From positions 1,792-45,521 of the forward strand of contig PAXN01000053.1 in NCBI GenBank assembly GCA_002715005.1: 43,730 nucleotides of DNA. The letters run 5' to 3'. The notes under the pieces are model-generated. The model was not told where the DNA came from and did not search any database. It saw nothing but the letters and a program-made list of their open reading frames with translations. A program made the translations under genes and the position numbers. Of the stretch, positions 6,741 to 42,944 are shown piece after piece; position 1 is the first letter of the stretch, and the number at the start of each line of letters is the position of its first letter. This stretch comes from Rhodospirillaceae bacterium. Lineage in GTDB: Bacteria; Pseudomonadota; Alphaproteobacteria; UBA8366.

Positions 6741-8189
6741 ATGAGGCAAAATTCAGTAAATTTCTATTTGACTCTTGGGGGATTGGCGTTTTTAGTTTGG
6801 GCATTCGTTTATTTCCAAACACTACAACACATGGTTATGGTGTGGTCTCAGTCCGAAACCTATAAACATTGTTTCTTTATCATCCCTATAACAATTTATC
6901 TTCTATATGAAAAGAGGGCACTTCTCAAAAGCTTAGATTATCGGCCTACTTGGTTGTTAATTGCACCGTTGCTGTTCATTCAAGCGTTATTTGTTTTAGC
7001 ACAGCAATTAAATGTACAACTTGTTGCTCATTTTTGTGCTGTTACTTCTCTTATAATAATTATCTGGACGCTGGTCGGAAATCATGTTTTCAAAGCTGTA
7101 GCGTTTCCTATTTTCTACCTTTATTTCGCCGTTCCTTTTGGCGAAGAGTTTGTTCCACATCTGCAAGTAATTACCGCAGATATAAGCTGCCAACTTCTAA
7201 TCGCGGTAGGCATTCCGGTCTATCGGGAGGGATTGTATCTGTATTTACCAAACGGGACCTTCCATGTTGCAGAAGCTTGCGCTGGAATACGATTTTTAAT
7301 AGGCACTTTTGCACTGGGCGTGCTCCTAGCGTATCTAAACTATCAGCGCGTATGGAAGCGGGTATTATTTTCATTGGTTTGCGCTTTTGTACCAGTAATC
7401 GCGAACGGAATTAGAGCATTTGGCATTATGGTTATAGGGCATGTTACTGACATGCAGCATGCGGTAGGAGCTGATCACTTGGTATATGGGTGGTTTTTCT
7501 TTTTATTTGTCCTAGTTATTTTGTTCTTTTTAGGAAATGTTGCTAACGATGCTCAAGCTAATTACTCAAGTAACGGAGAAGTTGGAAAAATAGAAGCTCG
7601 TTATCCTGTAGTTCTTACGTCCGTGTTAGTGCTTCTTTTGCCATTAGCGTCGAGCTTCAGCGCGAGTAAACACAGTTTATCAAAAGATATTAACGTCAGT
7701 CAGTTACTAGATTCCTATTATCAAGTTGGAGAGCAAGCTTCATTTAACTGGATGGAAGTTGGCGATGATACTATTCAACCGTCATGGACCGGTATTTTGA
7801 ATGAAATCCCATTGAGATTAACCTATCGAGATGATAGCGACGAGCAGGAATTAGTCAGCTCTTTACATCGACCATTTAACGATGACGAATTCAGCCTTCT
7901 CAAAGCTAAAGAACTAATTCGAAGAAACAACGATTCTTTCGAAATAATTAAGATTCAAAACGTACATGGACATAGCAAGAGCCTATTGATTTGGTATCAA
8001 TTGGAAAACCGTTCCGTAGCACCTGCTTTAACCGCAAAGTGGCAGCAGTTTCTCAATCGTATGTCTAGCAAAAGAGCCGATGGTTACTACGTCGTTGCAG
8101 AGATACCCGAAAACCTTTCAGTTGATATAGTATTAAAGCGGTTAGGCACTCTACCTCTACCTCCGACTGAAACAAAGGCTGCGCGATGA
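6741..8189 (+). CDS. xrtA: Exosortase A with fused C-terminal EpsI domain
   Basis: Polytopic inner-membrane cysteine protease/transpeptidase that recognises PEP-CTERM sorting tails and processes those proteins at the membrane. About eight membrane segments fill residues 10-265. The catalytic triad of the family is present: Cys180 in AEACAGIRFL, Arg225 in ANGIRAFGI, and His246 in GADHLVYGW. After a further membrane segment near 288-303 comes a periplasmic EpsI-like domain to residue 482, which is separate in some organisms. AGGA precedes the ATG by 10 bases. Its companions (FemAB, amidotransferase, deacetylase, ligase) are those of known XrtA loci. No PEP-CTERM substrate is encoded in this window, so its targets lie elsewhere. 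Confidence 0.95.
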   Translation: MRQNSVNFYLTLGGLAFLVWAFVYFQTLQHMVMVWSQSETYKHCFFIIPITIYLLYEKRALLKSLDYRPTWLLIAPLLFIQALFVLAQQLNVQLVAHFCAVTSLIIIIWTLVGNHVFKAVAFPIFYLYFAVPFGEEFVPHLQVITADISCQLLIAVGIPVYREGLYLYLPNGTFHVAEACAGIRFLIGTFALGVLLAYLNYQRVWKRVLFSLVCAFVPVIANGIRAFGIMVIGHVTDMQHAVGADHLVYGWFFFLFVLVILFFLGNVANDAQANYSSNGEVGKIEARYPVVLTSVLVLLLPLASSFSASKHSLSKDINVSQLLDSYYQVGEQASFNWMEVGDDTIQPSWTGILNEIPLRLTYRDDSDEQELVSSLHRPFNDDEFSLLKAKELIRRNNDSFEIIKIQNVHGHSKSLLIWYQLENRSVAPALTAKWQQFLNRMSSKRADGYYVVAEIPENLSVDIVLKRLGTLPLPPTETKAAR

Positions 8190-11179: not shown

Positions 11180-12417
11180 TGAAGCCTCCTTTGTTGTTCC
11201 TGTGCCACAGAATGCCCTTTCCTCCAAATAAGGGGGACAAGATTACCACTTTTAATCTTATGAATTATTTAAGCAAGCGTTTTGATCTTTATTTGGGAAG
11301 CTTTATTGATGATGAATTTGATAAGAAATTCATAGACGAGGTAAAAGCCTACTGTAGGGAAGTTAAATTTATCGACATCACGCGCAAACGATATCTAACC
11401 AGTGGTTTAAAATCCCTGGTGTTAGCCGAGTCTGTTTCTACTGCACATTACAGAAATGAAGAATTACAACGATGGGTTCACAAGGTTATTAATGAGCACG
11501 GTATAGACTATCTGTTTGTATATTCTTCAGGGATGGCTCAGTTTATTGACTTTCCAGAATACAAAGACAAAAAGCGTGTTTTAGATATGGCTGATGTGGA
11601 TTCAGATAAATGGCGTCAGTACTGTGAAAACAAGCCCTTCTATTCAAAAATTATTTATGCACGAGAATATAAACTACTAAAAACACTAGAGCAAAAGATT
11701 CTTTCAGAGTTTGACGCAATAACGTTAATAACGGATGAAGAGCGAGACTTGTTTAAGTCACTTTCTCCAAAAGCTTATAGTGACAAGATAGTTACGCTTA
11801 GCAATGGTGTTGATACTGATTATTTTGACCCTTTAGCTAAATTTGATCACACTGACAGCCCATGTGCGGAGAGCTTGTCAATTTGCTTTACCGGCGCAAT
11901 GGATTATTGGGCAAATGAAGATGCGGTGGTATGGTTCTGTGAAAAGGTGTGGCCGCTAATAATAGAAGAGCACCCAGCACTGATTTTCTACATAGTTGGT
12001 GGGAAACCCACGGAGCGTGTTAAAAAACTGGCCTCAATTAAAGGCGTTTTTGTAACAGGGAGAGTCGTAGATGTGCGTCCTTACATCGACAAAGCTCTAG
12101 TCGCCGTGGCAACTTTGCGTATCGCTCGAGGAGTCCAAAATAAAGTACTTGAAGCAATGTCTATGGCCAAGCCGGTAGTTATGACCTCTATGGCTCAGGA
12201 GGGAATAGCCTTACCCACAGAGCAAAAGAGATTAGTTATTGATGATGAAGCTATTATGGCTCAGACTATCCTAAATTTGGTCTCCGACAATGCGCGCTCT
12301 ACCGCAATCGGCGAAAAAAATCGCAAATGGATAGTTGAGCGATATAGTTGGGAAGGTGCACTTAAGCCTCTCGATAAACTTTACCCAAGGAAAGATAGAA
12401 ATGATAGTACGAGCTAA
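11179..12417 (+). CDS. Glycosyltransferase, exosortase A-associated (GT4-like)
   Basis: GT-B glycosyltransferase. The N-terminal LCHRMPFPPNKGDKITTFN block is the hallmark of the PEP-CTERM-associated group often listed as sugar transferase Stp1. The C-terminal lobe contains FTGAMDYWANEDAV and a VQNKVLEAMSMAKPVV segment with the family glutamate. The open frame runs back to 11122, but the ATG at 11179 overlaps the amidotransferase stop (TAATG), sits behind a GAGAGA sequence and starts at the conserved region, giving 412 aa. It overlaps the heptose kinase gene by 17 bases. The sugar transferred is unknown. Confidence 0.88.
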   Translation: MKPPLLFLCHRMPFPPNKGDKITTFNLMNYLSKRFDLYLGSFIDDEFDKKFIDEVKAYCREVKFIDITRKRYLTSGLKSLVLAESVSTAHYRNEELQRWVHKVINEHGIDYLFVYSSGMAQFIDFPEYKDKKRVLDMADVDSDKWRQYCENKPFYSKIIYAREYKLLKTLEQKILSEFDAITLITDEERDLFKSLSPKAYSDKIVTLSNGVDTDYFDPLAKFDHTDSPCAESLSICFTGAMDYWANEDAVVWFCEKVWPLIIEEHPALIFYIVGGKPTERVKKLASIKGVFVTGRVVDVRPYIDKALVAVATLRIARGVQNKVLEAMSMAKPVVMTSMAQEGIALPTEQKRLVIDDEAIMAQTILNLVSDNARSTAIGEKNRKWIVERYSWEGALKPLDKLYPRKDRNDSTS

Positions 12418-13435
12418 AGCGCCACTTCGTATAGGGTTAGCGGGAGGCGGCACGGATGTATCCCCATATAGCGATAAATATGGTGGTTTTATACTAAATG
12501 TCACACTCGACATGTTTGCTTACGCGACAATACAGACAAGGGATGACGATAAAATCTGTTTTGCAGCTCAAGATATAGAGCAAAAGTATACACAAAACAT
12601 ACAGGATGAGCTTATAGTTGAAGATGAATTAATTCTTCACAAAGCTATTTACAAACGAGTCATACAAGACTTTAACGGTGGCAAGCCTATAGCTCTTGAT
12701 ATTATAACGTTTTCAGATGCTCCTCCGGGGAGTGGCTTAGGCTCTTCTTCGACTATGGTTGTAGCTATTCTCGCTGCCTTTAGGGAACTACTTAAATTAC
12801 CTCTTGGTGAATATGATCTAGCGCATCTCGCTTATGAAATTGAGCGAGAGGATTGCAAATTGTCGGGGGGTAAACAAGACCAATACGCAGCCACATTTGG
12901 TGGTTTCAATTTTATGGAATTTTACCAAGATAGAGTTCTAGTCAATCCGCTGCGTATCCGAAATGATATACAGAACGAGCTCGAGAGCCAGATCATACTT
13001 TATTTCACGGGGCTGTCTCGAGACTCTGGTAAGATAATAGATGACCAAATAAAAGCATCAACCAAAACAGATAGTGACAAGTCATTGGAAGCATTGCACA
13101 AGGTTAAGCAGAGTGCTTTTGAAATGAAAGAGTGTCTACTGAGAAATGATATAGAAGGTATGTCAAGAGTTTTAGAGGCTTCATGGTTGGCTAAAAAGTC
13201 AACGTCATCTTCAATCTCAAACTCCTACATTGAAGAGGTAGCTTCTATGGCTATCGAAAATGGTGCAAAGTCTCTAAAACTATCAGGGGCTGGGGGAGGT
13301 GGTTTCATGATGCTTTTTGTTGACCCTGTAGACAAGCAACCGCTCATAAAAAAGCTAAAGCAAACTTCAGGGCAAGTACATAATTTTCAATTTACAAATT
13401 TTGGGGTAAAAGCGTGGACGGTACACAATATATAA
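12401..13435 (+). CDS. hddA: D-glycero-alpha-D-manno-heptose 7-phosphate kinase (GHMP kinase)
   Basis: Phosphorylates D-glycero-D-manno-heptose 7-phosphate at C1 in the alpha configuration, the second step towards GDP-activated heptose. The N-terminus RAKAPLRIGLAGGGTDVSPY and the ATP-binding loop PPGSGLGSSSTMVVA (GLGSSS at 112-117) are typical of HddA-like GHMP kinases. A third motif, LSGAGGGGFMMLF, lies near the C-terminus. The open frame extends back to 12335, but ATG 12401 has AAGGAAAG about 6 bases ahead and matches the family start, giving 344 aa. It is followed directly by the isomerase and guanylyltransferase of the same pathway, which argues against other GHMP sugar kinases. Confidence 0.88.
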   Translation: MIVRAKAPLRIGLAGGGTDVSPYSDKYGGFILNVTLDMFAYATIQTRDDDKICFAAQDIEQKYTQNIQDELIVEDELILHKAIYKRVIQDFNGGKPIALDIITFSDAPPGSGLGSSSTMVVAILAAFRELLKLPLGEYDLAHLAYEIEREDCKLSGGKQDQYAATFGGFNFMEFYQDRVLVNPLRIRNDIQNELESQIILYFTGLSRDSGKIIDDQIKASTKTDSDKSLEALHKVKQSAFEMKECLLRNDIEGMSRVLEASWLAKKSTSSSISNSYIEEVASMAIENGAKSLKLSGAGGGGFMMLFVDPVDKQPLIKKLKQTSGQVHNFQFTNFGVKAWTVHNI

Positions 13436-14010
13436 AAAGCCACTTTGAAAAGAGTATTGAGGTCAAACAGAAAATACTTGCTGATGGTGTATTGATTGAG
13501 CGAATTGTTAAAGCTAGCGAATTGTGTATCGAAGCGCTGCAACGTGGAAACAAAGTAATGTTTGCAGGAAACGGCGGCAGCGCTGCTGATTCTCAACATC
13601 TTGCAGCTGAATTTGTTAGCAGGTTCAACTTTGACCGCCCTGGTTTGCCTTCGATTGCTTTGACTACAGACACTTCGATGCTAACAGCTATTGGTAATGA
13701 TTATGGCTTTGAAAATCTATTTTCTCGTCAAGTACAGGCGAATGGCAGAGAAGGCGATATATTTGTTGGAATAAGTACATCTGGAAATTCGGTAAATGTT
13801 GTGAAGGCAGTAGAACAAGCGAAAGAGATGGGCATACATACTATTGCTTTATGTGGTGATGCAGGAAAGTTACCTGAAATGTGTGACATAACGCTCAACG
13901 TACCTTCAACGTGCACGCCTTATATTCAAGAGTCACACATCAGTATTGGTCACATTATTTGTGCTATTGTCGAAGAAACACTGTTTGCTAAATATAAACC
14001 TAAGGAGTAA
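13414..14010 (+). CDS. gmhA: Phosphoheptose isomerase (sedoheptulose 7-phosphate isomerase)
   Basis: Converts sedoheptulose 7-phosphate to D-glycero-D-manno-heptose 7-phosphate, the first committed step of heptose-nucleotide synthesis. SIS-domain protein with GNGGSAADSQHLAAEF at 52-67 (active-site histidine and glutamate near 62 and 66), STSGNS at 121-126 for phosphate binding, and QESHISIGH at 172-180, which supplies the other zinc/active-site residues. At 198 aa it is a normal length. The start is a GTG inside the end of hddA (22-base overlap), with GGGGTAAA in front. Probably a second copy serving the polysaccharide, since most Gram-negatives have another for LPS core. Confidence 0.9.
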   Translation: MDGTQYIKSHFEKSIEVKQKILADGVLIERIVKASELCIEALQRGNKVMFAGNGGSAADSQHLAAEFVSRFNFDRPGLPSIALTTDTSMLTAIGNDYGFENLFSRQVQANGREGDIFVGISTSGNSVNVVKAVEQAKEMGIHTIALCGDAGKLPEMCDITLNVPSTCTPYIQESHISIGHIICAIVEETLFAKYKPKE

Positions 14011-14012
14011 TT

Positions 14013-14738
14013 GTGGAAGCCATTCTTCTTGCCGGTGGTCTAGGGACTCGGTTGTACAGTGTGACTGGAGACAATTACCCCAAGTGTTTAGCGAAGGTAA
14101 ATGATGTACCTTTTTTACACTACATACTCTGGAATTTTCGAAACCAGGGTGTAAAGCGATTTGTATTAGCAGTTTCTCATCTTTCTGATATGGTAGAACA
14201 AGAAGTTAGGCATCATTTCGCAGATTGGGATATTGATTTCTCTATTGAGCGAGAACCACTTGGGACCGGTGGAGCAATAAGGCAAGCGCTAGCGCTTTGT
14301 CGTAGCGAACATGTGATAGTTGCAAATGCAGATTCTTTTATTGAATTTTCTTTACTGAAATTCGTTCATGAAATGCGTGAAAACGAAAGCGAGCTTGGGC
14401 TTGTATGCACAGAAGTTGATGACCTGTCTCGATTCGGCGCTGCCAATATTGAACAAGGAAAGCTCATAGGTTTTTCTGAAAAAGGGAAGAGCGGCAAAGG
14501 GTTTATTAATGCAGGTATATATTGGTTGAACACTTCTAACGACGCCTTTTTAGGCCAACCGGAGTGTTTTAGCTTTGAAAAAAATGTACTAGCTAATAGA
14601 GAGTTACATATAAATGTGTTCAAAACGAAAGGTTTATTCTTCGATATTGGAACCCCTGGAGATTTTGCTGGTGCTCAACGCCTTGTAGATTTGAATAAGG
14701 GGCTCTTTTCCACATCACCTAAGATAGTAGAAGAGTAA
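14013..14738 (+). CDS. hddC: D-glycero-alpha-D-manno-heptose 1-phosphate guanylyltransferase
   Basis: Nucleotidyltransferase that joins GTP and D-glycero-alpha-D-manno-heptose 1-phosphate to give the GDP-heptose donor. The N-terminus EAILLAGGLGTRL is the classic sugar-nucleotidyltransferase signature, with KCLAKVNDVPFLHY after it and EPLGTGGAIRQAL near residues 84-96. At 241 aa it fits HddC. It begins at a GTG with AAGGAG 5 bases ahead and only 2 bases after gmhA. The kinase-isomerase neighbours choose HddC over other nucleotidyltransferases. The 1,7-bisphosphate phosphatase step (GmhB) is not encoded here and is presumably supplied from elsewhere. Confidence 0.88.
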   Translation: MEAILLAGGLGTRLYSVTGDNYPKCLAKVNDVPFLHYILWNFRNQGVKRFVLAVSHLSDMVEQEVRHHFADWDIDFSIEREPLGTGGAIRQALALCRSEHVIVANADSFIEFSLLKFVHEMRENESELGLVCTEVDDLSRFGAANIEQGKLIGFSEKGKSGKGFINAGIYWLNTSNDAFLGQPECFSFEKNVLANRELHINVFKTKGLFFDIGTPGDFAGAQRLVDLNKGLFSTSPKIVEE

Positions 14739-33315: not shown

Positions 33316-34317
33316 CTAGGAGCGAATCCACGTAGTTCGTTTTGGATGTTTCGCAAGAATCTGCATCAAAACGTGACCTAGTAAGGGTAGGGATACTAAT
33401 CGAGAGAGGATATCTACTAAAAACAGTCGCCATGTATTCTTTTCTTTTCTAGCAAGACACATAAAGTAATGTGCAGTTCTTTTGTCACCTTTCACTAGCA
33501 ATTCTAATACTTGACCTGAAAGAAAGTTAGCCATTGACGCAGTGGGAAGCCTGTAAAATGCAGCTGCATTTCCCTTGGTGGATATTAAGTCTTCATTTAT
33601 CGTATTGGATTGCATGAAGCACTGTTTTGCAAGTTCGGCATAGTATGCCTGATCTAATGCTCTAAGTCTGTTTGCTGACACCCCTTCTTTTCCAAAAATT
33701 CCCCTTTCATAAAGAAATTCAGGGACTACATAAAAAGACCCAAGTCGAGATAAGCGAAGCCACAAATCTATATCCTGTGAATACTTAAAAAAATCTCGAT
33801 AGCCACCTACTTCATTATATGCGGTCTTTCTAAACATAACTTCGCCATGGCTGAAAGGATTGTTCCCTGATAAAAAGTCTTCCGCTTCTGGGGTTAACTT
33901 TGGAAAAGTAACTGGGGTTTTTAACTCACTTTCGCAAATTGCATGGACATTGTGGTAAAAGCAGCCCACCGCGACATGTTGGGGGTTAGTCGCCAATATC
34001 TTATGCTGCTTACAAATTCGTTCAGGCAGTGCTACATCCCCATTTCCTTGAATTGCAATAAACTCCCCTTGGGAATTATCAATAGCTAACTTGATTGCAC
34101 TTGTAAAGCCTCTATTCTCTGAAGTTATAATGCGAAAGCGTCTGTCATCAATACTCTGAAGTATGTGATTTACTTTGCTGTCTGTGCTGCCGTCATTAAC
34201 TATGACAACTTCAAATGAGCAAAAGGTTTGGGTTTTTAATGACTCAATAGTCTTTTCGAGAAATTCGCTTCTGTTAAAAACAGCCATACATACGGATACA
34301 CTCGGCTTATCCATCAT
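33316..34317 (-). CDS. Glycosyltransferase family 2
   Basis: GT-A inverting glycosyltransferase, 333 aa. SVSVCMAVFNRSEFLEKTIESLK and VVIVNDGSTDSKV form the nucleotide-binding start; IQGNGDVALPERICK near 94-108 occupies the DXD region with only one clear aspartate (the usual NDDD is NGDV), which is a slight oddity. FSHGEVMFRK and YSQDIDLWLRLSRLG are usual downstream motifs with the catalytic-base-like D/E region. It overlaps the flippase gene by 11 bases and is the last gene of the leftward block. Start chosen at the first of two consecutive ATGs. Confidence 0.85.
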   Translation of the reverse strand: MMDKPSVSVCMAVFNRSEFLEKTIESLKTQTFCSFEVVIVNDGSTDSKVNHILQSIDDRRFRIITSENRGFTSAIKLAIDNSQGEFIAIQGNGDVALPERICKQHKILATNPQHVAVGCFYHNVHAICESELKTPVTFPKLTPEAEDFLSGNNPFSHGEVMFRKTAYNEVGGYRDFFKYSQDIDLWLRLSRLGSFYVVPEFLYERGIFGKEGVSANRLRALDQAYYAELAKQCFMQSNTINEDLISTKGNAAAFYRLPTASMANFLSGQVLELLVKGDKRTAHYFMCLARKEKNTWRLFLVDILSRLVSLPLLGHVLMQILAKHPKRTTWIRS

Positions 34318-35614
34318 TTGCGCCTCTACTTTTTGGTGGTATGTTTAGGTCTGCTCTCTCAACCGAAAAAAATTTTCTAATCGATAGTTGGCTGTGTGTT
34401 TTAAAAAGGTTGATAGTTACTATTGCTGAAAAAAAGTAACTGATACTTGTTGATACGGCTGCTCCAGTTGCTCCATATTTAGGAATTAATAAAAGGTTTA
34501 AAACGATATTAAGGCTGACCGATATCGCCATTATTATGAGGCTGTACTGAGGCTCTCCCCGACCTGCGTAAAATGCATTGATAACCTTAAAGTAAACACC
34601 GAATGCAATACCGGGAATGAGCCAAAGCATTACATCAGGAACATGCTTGAATGATTCTCCAAATATCGGCACTGTTAGCCAAAATGCCCCAATGTAAACA
34701 AATAAGCTGCAGATCAACGTAGCCCAAAATGTCAGTCTGGCAGATTTTGCTACCGATGAATAAAGATCTTGAGTCGTACTGGAAGAGCTTGCTGACATTA
34801 ATGCAAAAACAACGGCGGTGACGAGTTGCCAATTCAATTCCGAGAGTTGTACGCTAAGAGCATATAGTCCTAATTCATGTTCTGACGACAAATAAGTCAT
34901 GAGCAAAATGTCAGCCTTGTAATTAGCATCAATTAGAAACAATGCTACGGCATATACGATGCCTTTTTTAAACATCCCACTAAAGACACGCCATGAAATT
35001 TTGAGGGATTTCTTTTCGCTTTTAGCAAAATATAAGTACAAAGTTAAACTGAAGTTCAGAATTGAAGAGACAAGCGTGCTCAGAACTGCGAGAAATACTG
35101 ATAAACCAAAGACGACTTCAAATAAAATGAGTAAGAGTAAGTTCAAAGCTTTCTGCCACCAAACTACTCTGTTAAAAGATGATATCGCGCCTTTACCCAA
35201 GAATACACCACGAAAAGCATTCACTGAGAGAGTCAATGGGAGTGTACTCGCAACCGCTACTATAAGGGAAAGTGTGAGATACTCAGGTCCGAACAAGTAC
35301 ATTGTCGTAATAACTAAGCCAGTACCGAGAGAGCCAGCCAGCACTATGTAAATAAATAAGCACCCTAAAATGGTGTCATCTTCAGCTAATTTTTTACCAG
35401 TAAAGTACATAGCTGCTTGGCGCATGCCACCTTCGACTAGAGCACTAAAAAGCTGCGGGTAAACAAATACAGCCGCTAGCATACCTCTACCTTCTGCACC
35501 CAAAAAACGCGCTACGATTATTGTTGAGAGCAGGCCAACAAAAAGCGATAGCATTTGTGTTGAAAAGATAGCGGTTATATTTTTAAAGAGGGGCGATGAG
35601 AGGTTCTTAGCCAT
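34307..35614 (-). CDS. Second polysaccharide flippase (Wzx-like, MOP superfamily)
   Basis: Polytopic inner-membrane protein of 435 aa with about twelve membrane segments. The start FKNITAIFSTQMLSLFVGLLST and then IIVARFLGAEGRGMLAAVFVYPQ is a typical polysaccharide-transport N-terminus, and SLNIVLNLLLIPKYGATGAAVSTSI is the common last-third signature. It should move a lipid-linked oligosaccharide across the membrane. It differs clearly from the first flippase (22624-24102), so the locus may serve two glycans. It overlaps the MurB-like gene by 8 bases and the family 2 transferase by 11. Confidence 0.88.
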   Translation of the reverse strand: MAKNLSSPLFKNITAIFSTQMLSLFVGLLSTIIVARFLGAEGRGMLAAVFVYPQLFSALVEGGMRQAAMYFTGKKLAEDDTILGCLFIYIVLAGSLGTGLVITTMYLFGPEYLTLSLIVAVASTLPLTLSVNAFRGVFLGKGAISSFNRVVWWQKALNLLLLILFEVVFGLSVFLAVLSTLVSSILNFSLTLYLYFAKSEKKSLKISWRVFSGMFKKGIVYAVALFLIDANYKADILLMTYLSSEHELGLYALSVQLSELNWQLVTAVVFALMSASSSSTTQDLYSSVAKSARLTFWATLICSLFVYIGAFWLTVPIFGESFKHVPDVMLWLIPGIAFGVYFKVINAFYAGRGEPQYSLIIMAISVSLNIVLNLLLIPKYGATGAAVSTSISYFFSAIVTINLFKTHSQLSIRKFFSVERADLNIPPKSRGANDG

Positions 35615-36581
35615 ATTTTAGTTCGGCAATTATATGGGCTGGCGTTAAATCACCAAAAGAGTCAACGTAATGGGCTTCTGCATCCATTAGATAACCTGTT
35701 CTTTGGAAAACGGCTTTGCGCGACAAATGGATTAGATAAAGAATATCGTCGCTTGAAGCTTGCCCATTATTAACTATGAAATTAGCGTGAACCTCAGAGA
35801 TCTGCGCACCGCCTCTCCTAAACCCTTTTAAGCCAGCCTTTTCAATCATCATGCCTGGGGGGCCGAACTCTTCGTACATCTTTGGATTACTTATGAATAC
35901 TGAGCCACAACTTGGTAGCTTTCTTGGAAATTTAGCTGAGCGAGCCCTTAATATTGCAAGCATATCTCTCTTGATTTTTTTTGAAACGCCCGATTGAAGC
36001 TTCATCTTCGCCGAAACAATAATCTCACTATTCTTTTGAAAGAGGGATTGGCGATAAGAAAAATTGCAATCTTTGACATCTCGCTCAATGGTGTCGCCTT
36101 TGGGAGTTAGTGATTTTACTGACAAAAGAGTTTCAGATATCGATCTTCTCAGGCTTCCTCCGTTCATGTAAATTAACCCGCCAAAAGTCCCTGGAATCCC
36201 ACAAATATGTTCGACACCTTTAAGGCCTTTTTCTGCCAAGTTACGTGCAAGTTTAGGTACCCAAACACTACTACCAACTAAAACTACATTCGGCTCTACG
36301 TAATCAATAACGTTTAAAGCTTTTGTCATAACGATAATAGGAACTTTTATTATATCATCCGTAAACAAAAGGTTCGAAGTGCAGCCCACTAAAAGGTATG
36401 GCAGATTCTCTTCATTACACTTCATTAGCGCACATTTAAGTTGTTCGAAGTCCTTTGGAACAATCACTAACTCAGCTTTACCGCCAGCTTTCCAGTAACT
36501 ATATTCGCTTAAACTAACATTGCAAAACGAATCTCCGATTCTAGAGGCGCTTTTTAAGAATAGTTTCTGGAGAGGTGTCAT
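35607..36581 (-). CDS. MurB-like UDP-N-acetylenolpyruvoylglucosamine reductase paralogue
   Basis: FAD-dependent reductase of 324 aa that would turn the enolpyruvyl ether made by the adjacent MurA-like enzyme into a D-lactyl ether, using NADPH. Visible motifs: GCTSNLLFTDD near 66-76 and GIPGTFGGLIYMNGG near 128-142 for FAD, YRQS near 176-179 for the substrate, CGSVFISNP near 225-233 with the serine that donates the proton (Ser227), and GGAQISEVHANFIVN near 257-271. A glutamate near 302 (DAEAHYV) occupies the C-terminal catalytic position. The key residues appear intact, so it is probably active. Placement between a flippase and glycosyltransferases points to a role in an extracellular glycan rather than the cell wall. 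Confidence 0.82.
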   Translation of the reverse strand: MTPLQKLFLKSASRIGDSFCNVSLSEYSYWKAGGKAELVIVPKDFEQLKCALMKCNEENLPYLLVGCTSNLLFTDDIIKVPIIVMTKALNVIDYVEPNVVLVGSSVWVPKLARNLAEKGLKGVEHICGIPGTFGGLIYMNGGSLRRSISETLLSVKSLTPKGDTIERDVKDCNFSYRQSLFQKNSEIIVSAKMKLQSGVSKKIKRDMLAILRARSAKFPRKLPSCGSVFISNPKMYEEFGPPGMMIEKAGLKGFRRGGAQISEVHANFIVNNGQASSDDILYLIHLSRKAVFQRTGYLMDAEAHYVDSFGDLTPAHIIAELKYG

Positions 36582-37852
36582 TTTATGATTTCTATTTTTG
36601 CGCCTAGTGAGCGCATTTTTTCGTAGAAACTGTCATAGCCTCTTCCAATTTGCCACGCGTCGTCAATCAAAGTCGTACCATCAGCAATAAGACCTGCTAG
36701 GCTTAGTGCAATACCTGCTCTCAAGTCTAATGCTTTGACCTCTGCAGCAGACAGTGCATCACCACCGTTAACGACAAGCATATTGCCATTTTCAAAGGAG
36801 TTTAATCCCATTTTATTTAGCTCTTTTGCGTACGCATAACGACCGGGAAAGCGGAGGTCTACGAACTTAGATTGACCTTTTGCTTTTGCTGCATATACGG
36901 CTAATATTGGTTGCATATCAGAATTAATGCCAGGGTAGGGACCAGTACTCAACTCAAGGGGAAAACAGCGAGAGCCCTTTACGATCATCGAATTTTTGTG
37001 CTTGTAAATTTTCGCCCCGGATTCTCTCAGGTAAATCAAAGGAATCTCAAGGTGCTCGTATGGAAAATCAAGAATCTCAACTTCTCCATTTGTAATCGAT
37101 GAGCCTACAAGCCAAGTCAACGCTTCGACATTATCAGGGATAACCTCGTGAGTAGCACCTCTTAGATATGGTTTTCCTCGAACTTCAATGTGCTCTTGTC
37201 CATGGACTATAATTTCGGCGCCCATAGAATTCAAAAGCGAGATTAAGTCTAAGATTTCGGGGCGCACATGAGGATTCCAAATTCTTGAGGTACCCTCAGC
37301 CAAGCTACTTATCAAAATCGCATTCTCTGTAGCACCTGTCGAGCGCATGGGTAACTTTACTTCACAAGCCTTTGTCCGCCCTTTGTATTTTTTCTCTGCA
37401 ATTAAAAAACCATTAACTTCGGATACACTTGCGCCGAAGGCTTCAAGTACCGTGATATGTATGTCATAAGCTCTAGATGACCCTTTCTCGCCAATACTAC
37501 ATCCCCCTGGCAATGGAACCGCACCATAACCGAACCGAGTAAAAAGAGTGCCCAAGATGAGTAATGTATTTCTAATAGATCGACCATCCCAGTCTAGTGT
37601 TGTCTTGCACTTTTTCTGCTCTGACACAATAAGCGTATCACCGAGTACATTAGTGGTTTTACCTAGCTCATTAAGCATTTCTTTATGGACTTGTGCATCC
37701 AATAACGATGCTGGATAATTGCTGATTGAAACATCTTCATTAGTCAGTAACGTTGCAGCCATCAACCTAAGGACAGAGTTTTTTGCTCCACTAACTTTTA
37801 CAGTTCCTTGTAGCGTAGAATTTTGGATCGCAATTTTATTGAACGTTTTCAT
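36578..37852 (-). CDS. MurA-like UDP-GlcNAc 1-carboxyvinyltransferase paralogue
   Basis: Moves enolpyruvate from phosphoenolpyruvate to O3 of a UDP-sugar (UDP-GlcNAc in the classical enzyme). The inside-out alpha/beta-barrel family is clear from VSGAKNS with Lys24-Asn25, and PGGCSIG with the catalytic Cys118. Asp312 in INSDMQ matches the general base, and Arg338 (PGRYAY) and Arg378 (DLRAG) match PEP-binding arginines. The loop after the cysteine is longer (GEKGSSRAYDIHI) than in E. coli (about GARPVDLHI), suggesting a distinct subgroup, as does NSDMQ for PTDMQ. At 424 aa it is of normal length. It overlaps the MurB-like gene (ATGA). The GlcNAc substrate is assumed, and a different UDP-sugar is possible. 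Confidence 0.88.
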   Translation of the reverse strand: MKTFNKIAIQNSTLQGTVKVSGAKNSVLRLMAATLLTNEDVSISNYPASLLDAQVHKEMLNELGKTTNVLGDTLIVSEQKKCKTTLDWDGRSIRNTLLILGTLFTRFGYGAVPLPGGCSIGEKGSSRAYDIHITVLEAFGASVSEVNGFLIAEKKYKGRTKACEVKLPMRSTGATENAILISSLAEGTSRIWNPHVRPEILDLISLLNSMGAEIIVHGQEHIEVRGKPYLRGATHEVIPDNVEALTWLVGSSITNGEVEILDFPYEHLEIPLIYLRESGAKIYKHKNSMIVKGSRCFPLELSTGPYPGINSDMQPILAVYAAKAKGQSKFVDLRFPGRYAYAKELNKMGLNSFENGNMLVVNGGDALSAAEVKALDLRAGIALSLAGLIADGTTLIDDAWQIGRGYDSFYEKMRSLGAKIEIIK

Positions 37853-37920: not shown

Positions 37921-38682
37921 TCAACGAGGAGGTTGTTGGTATTGGAAAATGTGTTTAATTTTTCTGTATGGAAAATAAAGGCTCCAGTATAGTCCGTAAA
38001 CAAGCTTCATTGAAACTGAATTGGCGTGAATACTGTGGATTTTTTTCTCATCATTAAATCGTTTTTTTAGTGTTTCCCAATCATTTCTAGAACTGATTCC
38101 CGTATCGCGCATCACGGCTAGAATATGTGGACAAAAAGCCACACGAACGTCCTTTAAGTACAATCTCAAAAAAAACTCGTAGTCCATTGCTATCGGAATG
38201 TCTTTGTTGAAATTACCATACTTTGTAAAAACACTTTTAGCGCATAGACAGCCCTGATGCCAAATACCAGTTTTGAATTTTGTTAACCAATCTAAACCTC
38301 TAGAAGTCTTGCGCTGCATGTTTTTTCCAAAAAGAATGTCACAAAGTACTAAGTCGTATCCACTTTCAATATAAGGTGCTACATTCTCAAGTGCATGTTT
38401 GTCATAAAGAAAGTCATCAGCATGGATGAAGGCAATATAATCCCCAGTTGCCAATTTAATTGCCTTGTTCATAGCGTCAGCGATACCGTCATCTTTTTCA
38501 GATACGACGATGTCTATTTTATCGTTATACTTTTCAATGATCTCTGGGGTAGAGTCTGTAGATTTTCCGTCAATTATAATGTATTCGAATGCATCGTACG
38601 TCTGCGATATTACACTTTTAATACAGCCTTCTAAGTGAGTTTCGTTATTATAAACAACTGTAACTATAGAAATTTTTTTCAT
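37921..38682 (-). CDS. Glycosyltransferase family 2 (WcaA-like)
   Basis: Short GT-A inverting glycosyltransferase, 253 aa. The start SIVTVVYNNETHLEGCIKSV is standard. IIDGKSTDST and VSEKDDGIADAMNKAIKLA are the hallmarks of the WcaA-like subgroup. FIHADDFLY near 88-97 holds the metal-binding ADD, and IWHQGCLCAKSVF gives the HQ motif. The 68 bases between it and the MurA-like gene (37853-37920) are very AT-rich, with no hairpin seen. Sugar unknown. Confidence 0.85.
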   Translation of the reverse strand: MKKISIVTVVYNNETHLEGCIKSVISQTYDAFEYIIIDGKSTDSTPEIIEKYNDKIDIVVSEKDDGIADAMNKAIKLATGDYIAFIHADDFLYDKHALENVAPYIESGYDLVLCDILFGKNMQRKTSRGLDWLTKFKTGIWHQGCLCAKSVFTKYGNFNKDIPIAMDYEFFLRLYLKDVRVAFCPHILAVMRDTGISSRNDWETLKKRFNDEKKIHSIHANSVSMKLVYGLYWSLYFPYRKIKHIFQYQQPPR

Positions 38683-38705: not shown

Positions 38706-39737
38706 TTAAAACCGATGTAAGATATTATGGTAGAGTTCGATGTATCGGTGAGTCATCTTTTCTATTCGGAAATTTTCTTTGGCGAATTGAAAATTTTGTT
38801 TACCAATTCTTTCTCGAAGCTCTGAGTTTGAACTGAGTTTTTCTATTTTTTCTACGAAATTATCTATGCAATTTAGGTCGCATAGAAATTCTTGTTGTGG
38901 AAATAGTTCGGGAAGTGAAGAGACATTGTGGGATATTACAGGTTTAGCGCAGAACATTGCTTCGACTGCTGTTAACCCAAACCCTTCCATTCGAGAAGGA
39001 AATAAAAAAATATCACAATAGTTATAATATTCATTTAGTTGGTTTTGATTGAGTTTACCAATAGATATAATCTTAGATGAAACATTTTTCTTTGCTTTTG
39101 TTCGTAGACCAGAGGTTGTGAGTAAAACGAACCTGTCATCTAATCTTTCCATTATTTTTTCTAATAAGTCGAAGCCTTTTCTTTTTGTCTGGTTACCGAC
39201 ATACAGGAGTTTTATCTTATCACTGGTATTAGGTATTAACTCGTTTTCAAGCTTTTTTCTATAAAAAACGTCATCACTAACTCCATTGTGAACAGGTACA
39301 CATTTTTTTTTAAAAATACTATACACCTCTTTGGCCGCATAATGGCTGACAGCGGTGACCGCATCTGCTCTGTCAAAAGACAATTTCTCAAAGTGCTTGA
39401 CAAGAAGTTTGTGAAATATTCTTTGTGGCACACTCTTGAATTTATCTAGTTCTCTATTGTGAACCACAAGGTGCTCAGTGACAAATAGGGGCTTATTTTT
39501 TTGTTTGAACACAAAGCCGTTCCAACTATTAGTATGAATTATATCCGCATCTGTTTTAAAATCTTTTTTCAACAACCAAGGTACATACTGATAAAAATGT
39601 GGATACTTCTGTATTTCCACATTTATTCCGTTTTTAGTCAAAGAGTCAGCAAGATTATATGTCCAAACGTCGCTTCCAGAACCGCATTCAACAAGAGGAA
39701 AGCATATTTTGAGATTATCATCTTTATTTATTGACAT
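38706..39737 (-). CDS. Glycosyltransferase family 4
   Basis: GT-B glycosyltransferase, about 343 aa. The N-terminal lobe has VECGSGSDVWTYNLADSL, and a FVTEHLVVHNRELDKFK segment follows the first helices. The donor lobe has LLYVGNQTKRKGFDLLEKIM and FPSRMEGFGLTAVEAMFCAKPVI with both conserved glutamates. The longest frame begins at a TTG (39749), but ATG 39737 with a GAG-containing ribosome-like site is preferred; it overlaps the upstream gene end by 14 bases. Base composition is low even for this window, unlike the genes just upstream. Confidence 0.85.
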   Translation of the reverse strand: MSINKDDNLKICFPLVECGSGSDVWTYNLADSLTKNGINVEIQKYPHFYQYVPWLLKKDFKTDADIIHTNSWNGFVFKQKNKPLFVTEHLVVHNRELDKFKSVPQRIFHKLLVKHFEKLSFDRADAVTAVSHYAAKEVYSIFKKKCVPVHNGVSDDVFYRKKLENELIPNTSDKIKLLYVGNQTKRKGFDLLEKIMERLDDRFVLLTTSGLRTKAKKNVSSKIISIGKLNQNQLNEYYNYCDIFLFPSRMEGFGLTAVEAMFCAKPVISHNVSSLPELFPQQEFLCDLNCIDNFVEKIEKLSSNSELRERIGKQNFQFAKENFRIEKMTHRYIELYHNILHRF

Positions 39738-40953
39738 GGTTAAACTCAAAGTTATGTAGCTTAGATCTAAACTTTTCGACGGTATTTGAAATAAGATAGT
39801 TTTTCTTCGCGAACGTAAACGCTTCCGCAGTTAAAGATTTGCCTTGGTCTGACAGGGCTAGTGCCAGTGCATTAGCAAGATTATCAGCGTTACCAGGCTC
39901 AGAGAGCCAGCCCGTTTTACCATGAATCACAGCATCAGGAATGCCACCGCTATTGGTGCCAACTACTTTGCACCCAGCAAGCATGGCTTCTACAAAGGTT
40001 AGACCTTGTGCCTCTATCCACCCGTCGTTAGATTGTTTCGAAGGCCCAGCAAACACATCTGCCGCTGCGTAATAGTTGTAAATTTCTTTGCTATTCACCC
40101 ACCCTACAAATGTTACAGATTCAGTAATATCTAAGTTTTCAGCCAATTCTCTAAAACGACATTCATCATGTCCGCTTCCCACAATCGCTAAATGCACCGA
40201 CTTTCCACTATCGATAAGTTTTTTTGTAGCATCTATTAACTCTCCAACGCCTTTTTCTTCGTTAACTCTCCCCACAAAGAGGATTAAGTGTTTAGTGTTT
40301 TCGGGTAGTAGCGCTGCTCTTAACTTAGAAACTTGTTCATTGCATAAAGTAGGTAAAGGTAAAATGCCAGTGGGAATAAGGATCACATTGTCCGCTGAAA
40401 GTGGAGAGAGTTCTTCTGCTTTTGCTTTCGTTACTGAGCTATTTACTGTTACTACATTTGAGTGTTTTAGAGAAAAAGATTTAAACTTTCTCAGTGTTTT
40501 ACCATCTAGCGCTAATACATCACCACCATGAATGGTTGCGACGTGCTTTGCCCTCGTGAGTTTACTCACTAGCGCACATACAAAGCCCTGAGGAATAAGC
40601 CAGTGAGAATTTATCCAAGTAGGCTTCCAAAACAATGTCTGAATTAGGGTGAAGAAAAACTCGCAGGCCACTAAAACAGGTAATTTAAGCTTGTTAACCC
40701 AATTTTTCTTTAAATTCCCCAGCGCGCCACCTTGGTAACATACCGTTTGCCCTGATTCAGGCAGCCAATACCGAAAACGACGAATTTCCACATCGTCCAT
40801 AATGTCTTTGCGTTTAGCTCCTTCAAAGTGCGGTGCCAACACCCTTACTTTTACCCCTTGATTTACCAATTCACGGGCAAAGTTATGAACGAACGGCGTA
40901 GTGTTATCGCCAGGCCAGCGTGGGTAGTTAGAAGTAACAATTAAAATTTTCAT
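39724..40953 (-). CDS. Glycosyltransferase family 4
   Basis: GT-B glycosyltransferase of 409 aa. Start MKILIVTSNYPRWPGDNTTP and then FVHNFARELVNQGVKVRVLAPH are typical of exopolysaccharide GT4 enzymes. NSHWLIPQGFVCAL and TIHGGDVLAL are conserved acceptor-side blocks. The donor lobe has FVGRVNEEKGVGELIDATK and GPSKQSNDGWIEAQGLTFVEAMLAGCKVV with the conserved glutamates. Its ATG overlaps the preceding stop (TAATG). Sugar unknown. Confidence 0.88.
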   Translation of the reverse strand: MKILIVTSNYPRWPGDNTTPFVHNFARELVNQGVKVRVLAPHFEGAKRKDIMDDVEIRRFRYWLPESGQTVCYQGGALGNLKKNWVNKLKLPVLVACEFFFTLIQTLFWKPTWINSHWLIPQGFVCALVSKLTRAKHVATIHGGDVLALDGKTLRKFKSFSLKHSNVVTVNSSVTKAKAEELSPLSADNVILIPTGILPLPTLCNEQVSKLRAALLPENTKHLILFVGRVNEEKGVGELIDATKKLIDSGKSVHLAIVGSGHDECRFRELAENLDITESVTFVGWVNSKEIYNYYAAADVFAGPSKQSNDGWIEAQGLTFVEAMLAGCKVVGTNSGGIPDAVIHGKTGWLSEPGNADNLANALALALSDQGKSLTAEAFTFAKKNYLISNTVEKFRSKLHNFEFNHVNK

Positions 40954-41939
40954 TAGGGCTTAGTGTTGCGCTCGTTATCGCGTTCTTGGTGGTCATCAAG
41001 CATCTGCAGTTCCATTCTGCGCACCTTCTCTAGCGTTTGCTCAATAAGCTGGCGATTGAAGTTTATTAGGTCGGCAAGTATGGCTATAAGAAACGTGATA
41101 ATACCCAGTACTGTTAATACACCACCAAGTATCAAAGACTGAAGATGGCCGTTACCGTCACCCATCAAATAGAAAATGAGAAAGCGTATAATGGGTATAA
41201 GGCCAATTAAGGTAATTATCGCCCCAATTAGCACAAAAACTCTTAACGGTTGATACATGGTGTACATGCGTACTATGGTGGTTAATTGGCGCTCTATAAA
41301 TTTAGGAATGCTGGTAAAAAGGCGAGACTCTCGAGTTTTTGCATTGGTCTCTACGGGAACATGGGTAACAGCCATGTGCTTTTTACCTGATTGAATAAGC
41401 GCTTCAATGGTATAGCTAAAAGGGCTGATAATATTAAGCTGCAGTGCCGCTTCTCTGCTGTAGGCGCGAAAACCGCTTACCGCATCGGGTACTTGAACAC
41501 CCGACACCTTCTTAACCACATAGCTGCCTACTTTCTGAAGCAGCTTTTTTAACGGGGAAAAGTGTTCAATATCTTGCGTGTTTCTGTCGCCTACTACAAC
41601 GTCGGCTTTGCCTTCAAGTACCGGAACAACAAGCTTAGCGATATCCCAGCCCGCATACTGATTATCACCGTCGGTATTGACAATAATGTCAGCGCCACGT
41701 TTCAAACATTCGTCTATGCCTTTGCGGAAGGTGCGTGCAAGCCCTCTGTTATTTTTATTTTTTATTATATGGTGCACACCAAGCGATTTCGCTACCTCAA
41801 TGGTATTATCGGTAGAACCGTCATCAATTATCATGTATTCGATAACGTCAATACCATCAATATGTTCCGGCAAGTCCTTCACGGTCTGGGGCAATGTACG
41901 TTCTTCGTTGTAGCAAGGTATTTGAATAATTAGTTTCAT
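40953..41939 (-). CDS. Glycosyltransferase family 2 with C-terminal membrane anchors (DPM1/GtrB-like)
   Basis: GT-A enzyme of about 328 aa with two C-terminal membrane segments (around 235-258 and 268-292), like polyprenyl-phosphate sugar synthases (dolichol-phosphate mannose synthase, GtrB). MKLIIQIPCYNEERTLPQTV and MIIDDGSTDNTIEVA form the donor site, NTDGDNQY is the DXD region, and DAVSGFRAYSREAAL is a hallmark of the group. If so it makes an undecaprenyl-phosphate sugar for a periplasmic GT-C transferase. A GTG start at 41948 is open, but ATG 41939 with GTGGA about 6 bases ahead and the conserved start is preferred. More GC-rich than its neighbour at 38 kb. Confidence 0.85.
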   Translation of the reverse strand: MKLIIQIPCYNEERTLPQTVKDLPEHIDGIDVIEYMIIDDGSTDNTIEVAKSLGVHHIIKNKNNRGLARTFRKGIDECLKRGADIIVNTDGDNQYAGWDIAKLVVPVLEGKADVVVGDRNTQDIEHFSPLKKLLQKVGSYVVKKVSGVQVPDAVSGFRAYSREAALQLNIISPFSYTIEALIQSGKKHMAVTHVPVETNAKTRESRLFTSIPKFIERQLTTIVRMYTMYQPLRVFVLIGAIITLIGLIPIIRFLIFYLMGDGNGHLQSLILGGVLTVLGIITFLIAILADLINFNRQLIEQTLEKVRRMELQMLDDHQERDNERNTKP

Positions 41940-41948
41940 AATTTCCAC

Positions 41949-42944
41949 TTAGCTAAGCATTGCTTTTATTTTCAGCCAATAAGTTCGTATGAACCACTTA
42001 ATGCTAAATCGGCAGGCCAGTGCTTTACTGGCGTATACTGCGGCGTCTTTTGTTCTATTAGTTGAAAGTAACTCGTGAGTAATGTGTTGATAAATAAAGC
42101 CTAGATACGCTAAGCAATAGGTACGCAGCGAAGAACGTTTTAGCAGTAGGGCTCCTTTTTGGAATACTGTTACCTGATACAAGCGTTTTTCCAGCATGTT
42201 TACCACGGTTGTCATATTATCTTTTTTACTTGTATCAGGAATTAAATGTCGAGAGACTACGCAGGGGTTGTACAGTATTGTATCTGCTCGGTCTAGCGTT
42301 CGAAGATATAGGTCTCGGTCGCATTCCCAACGAATATTTTCGTCCATTCCGTTTATGCTTAAATAAAGCTCTCGTCTTATAATAGAGCAATTCAAATGCG
42401 CGAAACCATGGCTTTCGAGCAGTTCAGGAACGCTCACGACCATCGTTCCTTGAACGTCAGACTGCTTATATTGTAGTCTTTCAGCTAAATCTTCTAGCCA
42501 TATAGGGCCTTGCTTCACGACACCGTCTACGAATACTGCTGTTTGATTCGTGTAATAGGCATCTACTGTAGCTTCACAATTGGCAATGCTTTCAAATGCT
42601 CGTGCTAGATGATCAGGATCAATCCATTCGTCGTCGTCATCGAGGAAGCAAAGGTATTTTCCAACGCCAACCAAGGCACCAGTGTTCATTGAGTAACTTT
42701 GACCGTGTCCAATGGGGCGTTTTATTTGATATCTAAAATAAACGTTTGAAGGCGTTTCCTTTTCAAACTGCTTGTAAGCTTCAAGAAACTCTTCATCAGA
42801 ACCATCGTTTACAACAATTACTTCAAAGTTAGTGAATGTCTGAGATAAAACCGAACTTAGTGCCTTTTTGAACAGGTCGACTCTATTTCGAGTAGGGATC
42901 ACGACACTAAAAAATGGGGTGTTTTTTACATCAGTGTTCGTCAT
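41949..42944 (-). CDS. Glycosyltransferase family 2
   Basis: GT-A inverting glycosyltransferase of 331 aa. FFSVVIPTRNRVDLFKKALS and VIVVNDGSDEEFLEAYKQF are the donor-site motifs, GHGQSYSMNTGALVGVGKYL leads to FLDDDDEWIDPDHL with the metal-binding aspartates near 98-102. NCSIIRRELYLSINGMDENIR and WECDRDLYLRTL follow, giving the acceptor/base region. Overlaps the deacetylase-like gene by 4 bases. Sugar unknown. Confidence 0.87.
   Translation of the reverse strand: MTNTDVKNTPFFSVVIPTRNRVDLFKKALSSVLSQTFTNFEVIVVNDGSDEEFLEAYKQFEKETPSNVYFRYQIKRPIGHGQSYSMNTGALVGVGKYLCFLDDDDEWIDPDHLARAFESIANCEATVDAYYTNQTAVFVDGVVKQGPIWLEDLAERLQYKQSDVQGTMVVSVPELLESHGFAHLNCSIIRRELYLSINGMDENIRWECDRDLYLRTLDRADTILYNPCVVSRHLIPDTSKKDNMTTVVNMLEKRLYQVTVFQKGALLLKRSSLRTYCLAYLGFIYQHITHELLSTNRTKDAAVYASKALACRFSIKWFIRTYWLKIKAMLS

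Follow-up and report, generated by a model that had tools for sequence, protein, structure and literature searches.

Background

The closest described relatives of the two genes studied here are the housekeeping MurA (EC 2.5.1.7, UDP-N-acetylglucosamine (UDP-GlcNAc) 1-carboxyvinyltransferase) and the type II housekeeping MurB (UDP-N-acetylmuramate dehydrogenase). The genes encode a MurA-like and a MurB-like protein within a surface-polysaccharide operon of a Rhodospirillaceae bacterium, in a stretch of 43,730 nt from contig PAXN01000053.1 (assembly GCA_002715005.1), which was analysed as a whole and is called the window; all positions refer to it unless another locus is named. The MurA-like protein and its relatives, named exopolysaccharide (EPS) MurA below, share the fold, length, catalytic residues and approximately 35% identity with housekeeping MurA, but they form a separate clade with 29 fixed residues of their own, fall below the equivalog cut-off and occur in the context of polysaccharide loci. 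Likewise, EPS MurB has the FAD_binding_4 and MurB_C domains and the catalytic Arg, Ser and Glu of type II MurB, whereas its N233 is replaced, it falls into lineages of its own, and its genes lie in polysaccharide loci.

A further described relative, NikO of nikkomycin biosynthesis, is a paralogue of MurA fold that acts on another acceptor, as is proposed here for the window protein; the enolpyruvyl acceptor of NikO is the 3'-OH of UMP (PMC6801904). The fold match between the two has a template-modelling (TM) score of 0.85, but they are only 23–24% identical and NikO belongs to an antibiotic pathway. To our knowledge, NikO has no MurB partner.

The predicted product class, 1-carboxyethyl sugars of surface glycans, is known in the form of structures (PMC2901825, PMC4515632). 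The first-pass annotation had mentioned such sugars from Alteromonas polysaccharides, and the literature confirms 3-O-(1-carboxyethyl)-D-glucuronic acid (GlcA) in two Alteromonas EPS (PMC2901825). N-acetylmuramic acid (MurNAc) occurs in the lipooligosaccharide core of Psychrobacter arcticus, the O-antigen of Yersinia ruckeri O1 and the capsule of Vibrio vulnificus ATCC 27562 (PMC4515632), and its (S) isomer was reported in Proteus penneri (PMC10609480). Chemically, muramic-type sugars are already known from surface glycans. Lactyl-ether sugars of bacterial surface glycans have been reported since the 1990s. Searches of the open-access literature found no description of MurA and MurB genes paired within a polysaccharide locus, nor of a gene for the synthesis of a lactyl-ether sugar; subscription papers were mostly outside these searches, and such descriptions may exist there.

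Assignment of the MurA-like and MurB-like proteins

We assign a probability of about 0.62 to the reading that the two proteins are dedicated to tailoring a sugar nucleotide for the Wzx-type polysaccharide operon in which they are encoded, with an acceptor that is probably not UDP-GlcNAc. A pair dedicated to a surface glycan and distinct from the housekeeping enzymes had been proposed in the first-pass annotation, and this is supported by the genome search, the phylogeny and the operon context presented below.

The MurA-like protein matched the MurA/EPSP-synthase superfamily PF00275 (6.6e-64, residues 11–413) and the NCBIfam MurA subfamily model (5.5e-108), and it missed the TIGR01072 murA equivalog cut-off (351.6 vs 392.7 bits). 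All of the residues K22, N23, R91, C115, R120, D305 and R397 (E. coli MurA numbering) are present. The predicted model has a mean predicted local distance difference test value (pLDDT) of 90.6 and TM scores of 0.90–0.92 against the crystal structures of E. coli and E. cloacae MurA, and on this basis the protein is confidently predicted to adopt the MurA fold.

The MurB-like protein matched PF02873 (4e-25) and the MurB equivalog (8.9e-80), passing the cut-offs of both TIGR00179 (201.5 vs 144.5 bits) and PRK13905 (267.8 vs 259 bits). It comprises the FAD_binding_4 and MurB_C domains, its best matches in the PDB are MurBs of the Gram-positive type, and the catalytic residues R159, S229 and E325 of MurB are present as R177, S227 and E302.

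The open reading frames (ORFs) and family searches gave a minus-strand gene order of five glycosyltransferases, MurA-like, MurB-like, Wzx and a GT2 glycosyltransferase. Because the last four genes overlap by 4, 8 and 11 bases, as calculated from their coordinates, translational coupling is suggested. The earlier description of two intact, adjacent and coupled genes at 35607–37852, placed between a Wzx flippase and glycosyltransferases and away from any cell-division or mur cluster, is therefore borne out: the coordinates are right, the catalytic residues are complete, and the neighbourhood of the pair holds only glycosyltransferases and Wzx, with no mur or fts genes.

Housekeeping copies elsewhere in the genome

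Three PF00275 genes were detected in the source genome: the window gene, a housekeeping murA located beside a dcd-like gene and encoding a protein 35% identical to the window protein, and an AroA-type gene beside a cytidylate-kinase-like gene. The genome also has two MurB genes, the second of which (housekeeping, 31% identical) lies between murC-like and ddl-like genes. The window pair as the single-copy, essential murA/murB was thus rejected, since separate housekeeping murA, murB and aroA genes exist, and the pair is distinct from the cell-wall enzymes. When approximately 90 other genomes of the genus, family, order and class were queried, each had one MurB, nearly all at ≤36% identity, and two MurBs were seen in the source genome only.

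Phylogeny and distribution

One genome per species was scanned with the family alignment, which yielded 168 relatives; the best 80 of these, 54–70% identical to the window MurA-like protein, were analysed and compared with 18 housekeeping MurAs. They come from Pseudomonadota, Bacteroidota, Verrucomicrobiota, Planctomycetota, Cyanobacteriota, Spirochaetota, Thermodesulfobacteriota, Armatimonadota, Balneolota and Omnitrophota. The adjacent pair is also carried by plasmids of Agrobacterium, Qingshengfaniella and several Rhizobium (MurA 56–57%, MurB 40–44%), and after these plasmid matches identity drops sharply to ≤37%. Scans of viral sequences revealed no viral relatives of the pair. The novelty that the first-pass annotation had seen in the locus holds only in part: the pair recurs across phyla and muramic-type surface sugars are known chemistry, while no paper on the gene pair itself was found in the open-access literature searched.

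The MurA and MurB trees were built by a quick method under the simple LG+G4 model. In the MurA tree, a branch with a Shimodaira–Hasegawa-like approximate likelihood ratio test (SH-aLRT) support of 91 sets off the 80 EPS MurAs, and the 18 housekeeping MurAs form a clade with support of 99, with which the window protein does not group. Identity among EPS MurAs is at least 51%, whereas that between EPS and housekeeping MurAs is at most 40%. Together with the clade-fixed residues described below, the tree upholds the earlier view of the MurA-like protein as a subgroup of its own. The nearest relatives of the window protein (starred branch) are those of Agaribacter and Pseudoalteromonas, while the housekeeping MurA of the same genome clusters with its counterparts from Rhizobium and one Rhodospirillales genome; this suggests horizontal transfer.

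Unlike the MurAs, the EPS MurBs fall into at least two well-supported lineages and a few scattered members. The lineage holding the window protein has 31 rows and the second one, mostly from Bacteroidota, has 32 rows, each with support of 100. As judged from these lineages, one MurA clade is paired with MurBs that were recruited more than once.

Under the strict threshold, EPS MurA is rare within groups: 2 of 385 genomes carry it in the class of the source bacterium, 3 of 105 in Psychrobacter, and 2 of 297 in each of the Photobacterium and Agaribacter families. The possibility that the pair is kept in reserve for peptidoglycan synthesis, as with MurA1/MurA2 in Gram-positive bacteria, agrees with its MurA fold and catalytic residues; such sporadic occurrence in the class, the constant location in Wzx/glycosyltransferase operons without mur or fts genes nearby, and the lack of a Mur-ligase motif in the loci make it very improbable.

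Two plasmid candidates for membership were rejected: a Sphingomonas murA (H12, 36% identical), which has neither polysaccharide neighbours nor a local MurB, and a Paenibacillus murA/murB (H35), located inside a mur/fts cluster. A plasmid of Haematobacter massiliensis (L031, 10590–12933) carries a pair whose MurA is very divergent (34% identical to the window protein, with an unsure place in the tree) and whose MurB belongs to the window's MurB lineage. This locus has a UDP-glucose dehydrogenase and an epimerase, and its pair is possibly a further subfamily.

Substrate pocket and loop

The catalytic residues are kept in 79–80 of the 80 EPS MurAs. Several of the 29 clade-fixed residues, none of which occurs in the 18 housekeeping MurAs, are in the sugar-nucleotide pocket, and the changes (E. 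coli MurA positions) include A92N, V161R, V163T, E188R, R232N, P303N, V327R and Y393W. Three new invariant Arg residues thus appear at positions 161, 188 and 327, and H394 is replaced by Gln in 79/80 proteins. In MurA, the diphosphate-binding region includes V163 (PMC8698320), a role in activating Cys115 has been proposed for His394 (PMC9346081), and Glu188 and Val327 were placed in the active site by docking (PMC8587927). A change was also found in MurB, where N233 is listed as a diphosphate contact (PMC12844806): this position is Asn in 16/16 housekeeping MurBs, Ser in 27/28 proteins of the window lineage and Arg in 32/32 of the other. The window protein has Ser, and the contact is not kept.

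These positions bear on the simplest alternative, namely that the pair provides a second supply of ordinary UDP-MurNAc for a surface glycan, sparing the peptidoglycan pool. The family models name both proteins as UDP-GlcNAc/UDP-MurNAc enzymes, and MurNAc is known in the lipooligosaccharide core, O-antigen and capsule of other bacteria (PMC4515632). However, the housekeeping pair already supplies UDP-MurNAc, so that a transferase alone would suffice; sugar-nucleotide pocket positions are changed in 80/80 EPS MurAs, N233 is replaced in both main EPS MurB lineages, and the MurA-like protein is under the murA equivalog cut-off. We consider this alternative unlikely, although it deserves to be taken seriously. 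Since the pocket and N233 are changed and the cell already makes UDP-MurNAc, another UDP-sugar is argued for, and the product likely differs from UDP-MurNAc, as far as sequence comparison can tell. The 3-O-lactyl ether of a UDP-sugar that was predicted at first is thus retained as the probable product, while UDP-MurNAc, then given as its example, becomes less likely.

A fosfomycin-type self-resistance or target-replacement copy was also considered, as extra MurA copies can affect the fosfomycin response in other settings. It is hardly credible, because the fosfomycin-reactive Cys is kept in 80/80 EPS MurAs, the neighbours are polysaccharide genes and a MurB would serve no purpose.

Compared with E. 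coli MurA, the loop that follows the catalytic Cys has four additional residues (GCSIGEKGSSRAYD vs GCTIGARPVD), and the insert is poorly ordered in the predicted model (residues 120–126). The lengthened loop noticed in the first-pass annotation is therefore real, but it does not define the subgroup: the insert is present in only 5/80 clade members (the window, L034, L035, L028 and L045) and in the outlying Haematobacter protein, and loop length was rejected as a clade signature. The commonest form in the clade, GCKLGERKYDLH, is as long as the housekeeping loop. The mark common to the EPS clade is R-[KA]-[YF]-D where housekeeping MurA has R-P-V-D.

Recurrent operon module

ORFs were clustered around 84 loci and the window, and counts were made over the 81 loci whose MurA ORF was clean. 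The recurring order is MurA, often a CysE-like hexapeptide acyltransferase, Wzx, MurB and one of two glycosyltransferase types, which is reduced in the window to MurA-MurB-Wzx-GT2. Wzx was found in 62/81 loci and one of the two glycosyltransferase types in 57/81. There is good support for a role of the pair in a surface glycan. As the ATP-site motif of Mur ligases was found in none of the 81 loci, the carboxyl of the lactyl group is presumably not peptidylated. In many loci, e.g., L036, L037 and L043, MurA and Wzx are separated by the CysE/EpsC-like acyltransferase (cluster c2).

MurB was present within the fetched stretch in 70/85 loci. The genomes of 14 loci without a local MurB were searched; four have an extra MurB elsewhere and ten have only one MurB. 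These ten genomes, together with a beta-propeller-like gene near the place of MurB in three loci, are what could be expected if the enolpyruvyl ether were the finished modification, with MurB secondary or absent in some loci. In the window, however, MurB is adjacent, overlapping and catalytically complete, and in a separate set of 16 genomes, mostly chosen with a local MurB, the number of extra MurBs equalled that of extra MurAs in 16/16. We regard a finished enolpyruvyl ether as improbable. The beta-propeller-like protein has pyrroloquinoline quinone (PQQ)-type repeats, lacks an obvious signal peptide and is encoded beside or near Wzx in three MurB-less EPS MurA loci, approximately at the MurB position (L075 13130–14326, L094 12428–13618, L099 8105–9307). 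The sequence does not support it as an alternative reductase.

Proposed pathway

In the tailoring pathway that we favour, the MurA-like enzyme would move the enolpyruvyl group from phosphoenolpyruvate to a ring hydroxyl of a UDP-sugar, O-3 by analogy with MurA, and reduction by the MurB-like flavoenzyme would then give a 1-carboxyethyl (lactyl) ether. One of the operon's glycosyltransferases, for which the GT2 protein downstream of Wzx is the candidate, would add the acidic lactyl sugar to the repeat unit, which Wzx would then flip. The reaction, acceptor, product and transferase are all inferred. The acceptor is probably a UDP-sugar other than UDP-GlcNAc, with a UDP-uronic acid such as UDP-GlcA as the leading candidate. 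The uronic acid is suggested by the invariant Arg 161, 188 and 327 and by UDP-uronate or hexosaminuronate sugar-nucleotide genes in 35/81 loci, and it should be taken as a lead only. The expected product would match the 3-O-(1-carboxyethyl)-D-GlcA described in two Alteromonas EPS (PMC2901825). The epimerase cluster is heterogeneous, with members resembling UDP-GlcA epimerases and other sugar-nucleotide epimerases. A UDP-glucose dehydrogenase gene is present elsewhere in the source genome.

Several points weigh against this pathway. The changed MurA residues are presumably near the sugar, a placement based on the literature and general background knowledge, and changes of the pocket that are fixed throughout a clade could simply reflect its history. 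The 35/81 figure is a raw count, uncorrected for the background frequency of such genes in polysaccharide loci, and uronate and epimerase genes are absent from the window's own cluster. Furthermore, a MurA-only variant exists, as follows from the 10 of 14 MurB-less loci whose genome has just one MurB, and the reductase is not obligatory.

Gene neighbourhood of the window

The features of the operon are listed in Table 1.

Table 1. Genes of the MurA/MurB operon in the window
Feature	Position	Strand	Remarks
GT2 glycosyltransferase	33316..34317	-	recurrent partner beside the pair, cluster c5
Wzx-type flippase	34307..35614	-	8-base overlap with MurB-like gene; recurrent core module, cluster c1
MurB-like FAD reductase (P0002), type II	35607..36581	-	324 aa; start overlaps MurA-like stop by 4 bases
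MurA-like enolpyruvyl transferase (P0001), EPS clade	36578..37852	-	424 aa; catalytic Cys118; loop insert at about residues 122-126
GT2 glycosyltransferase	37921..38682	-	directly upstream of MurA-like gene
GT4-type glycosyltransferase	38706..39749	-	
GT4-type glycosyltransferase	39724..40953	-	
GT2 glycosyltransferase, C-terminal membrane segments (DPM1/AglJ-like)	40953..41948	-	
GT2 glycosyltransferase	41949..42944	-	

The operon adjoins a complete exosortase A/PEP-CTERM exopolysaccharide locus (38–24102), whose members include XrtA (6741–8189), TIGR03007, 03027, 03013, 03006, 03019 and 03108, and the O-ligase TIGR03097. PEP-CTERM-like tails were observed on two proteins upstream (L171, 9698–10561 and 13533–14402). 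HddA-, GmhA- and HddC-like genes and a GmhB-like phosphatase, located at 12335–14738 of the window and 4110–4673 of L171, likely represent a GDP-D-glycero-D-manno-heptose pathway for a surface glycan.

Implications

Beyond the window, we lean slightly towards a widespread, horizontally moving pathway derived from MurA and MurB, which would make lactyl ethers of a UDP-sugar other than UDP-GlcNAc (e.g., UDP-3-O-lactyl-glucuronic acid) for surface polysaccharides. The conserved operon and the list of pocket residues offer concrete candidate genes for the synthesis of lactyl-ether sugars. Automatic annotation labels the genes of the EPS clade as peptidoglycan murA and murB, which could mislead analyses of essentiality, drug targets and genome completeness.

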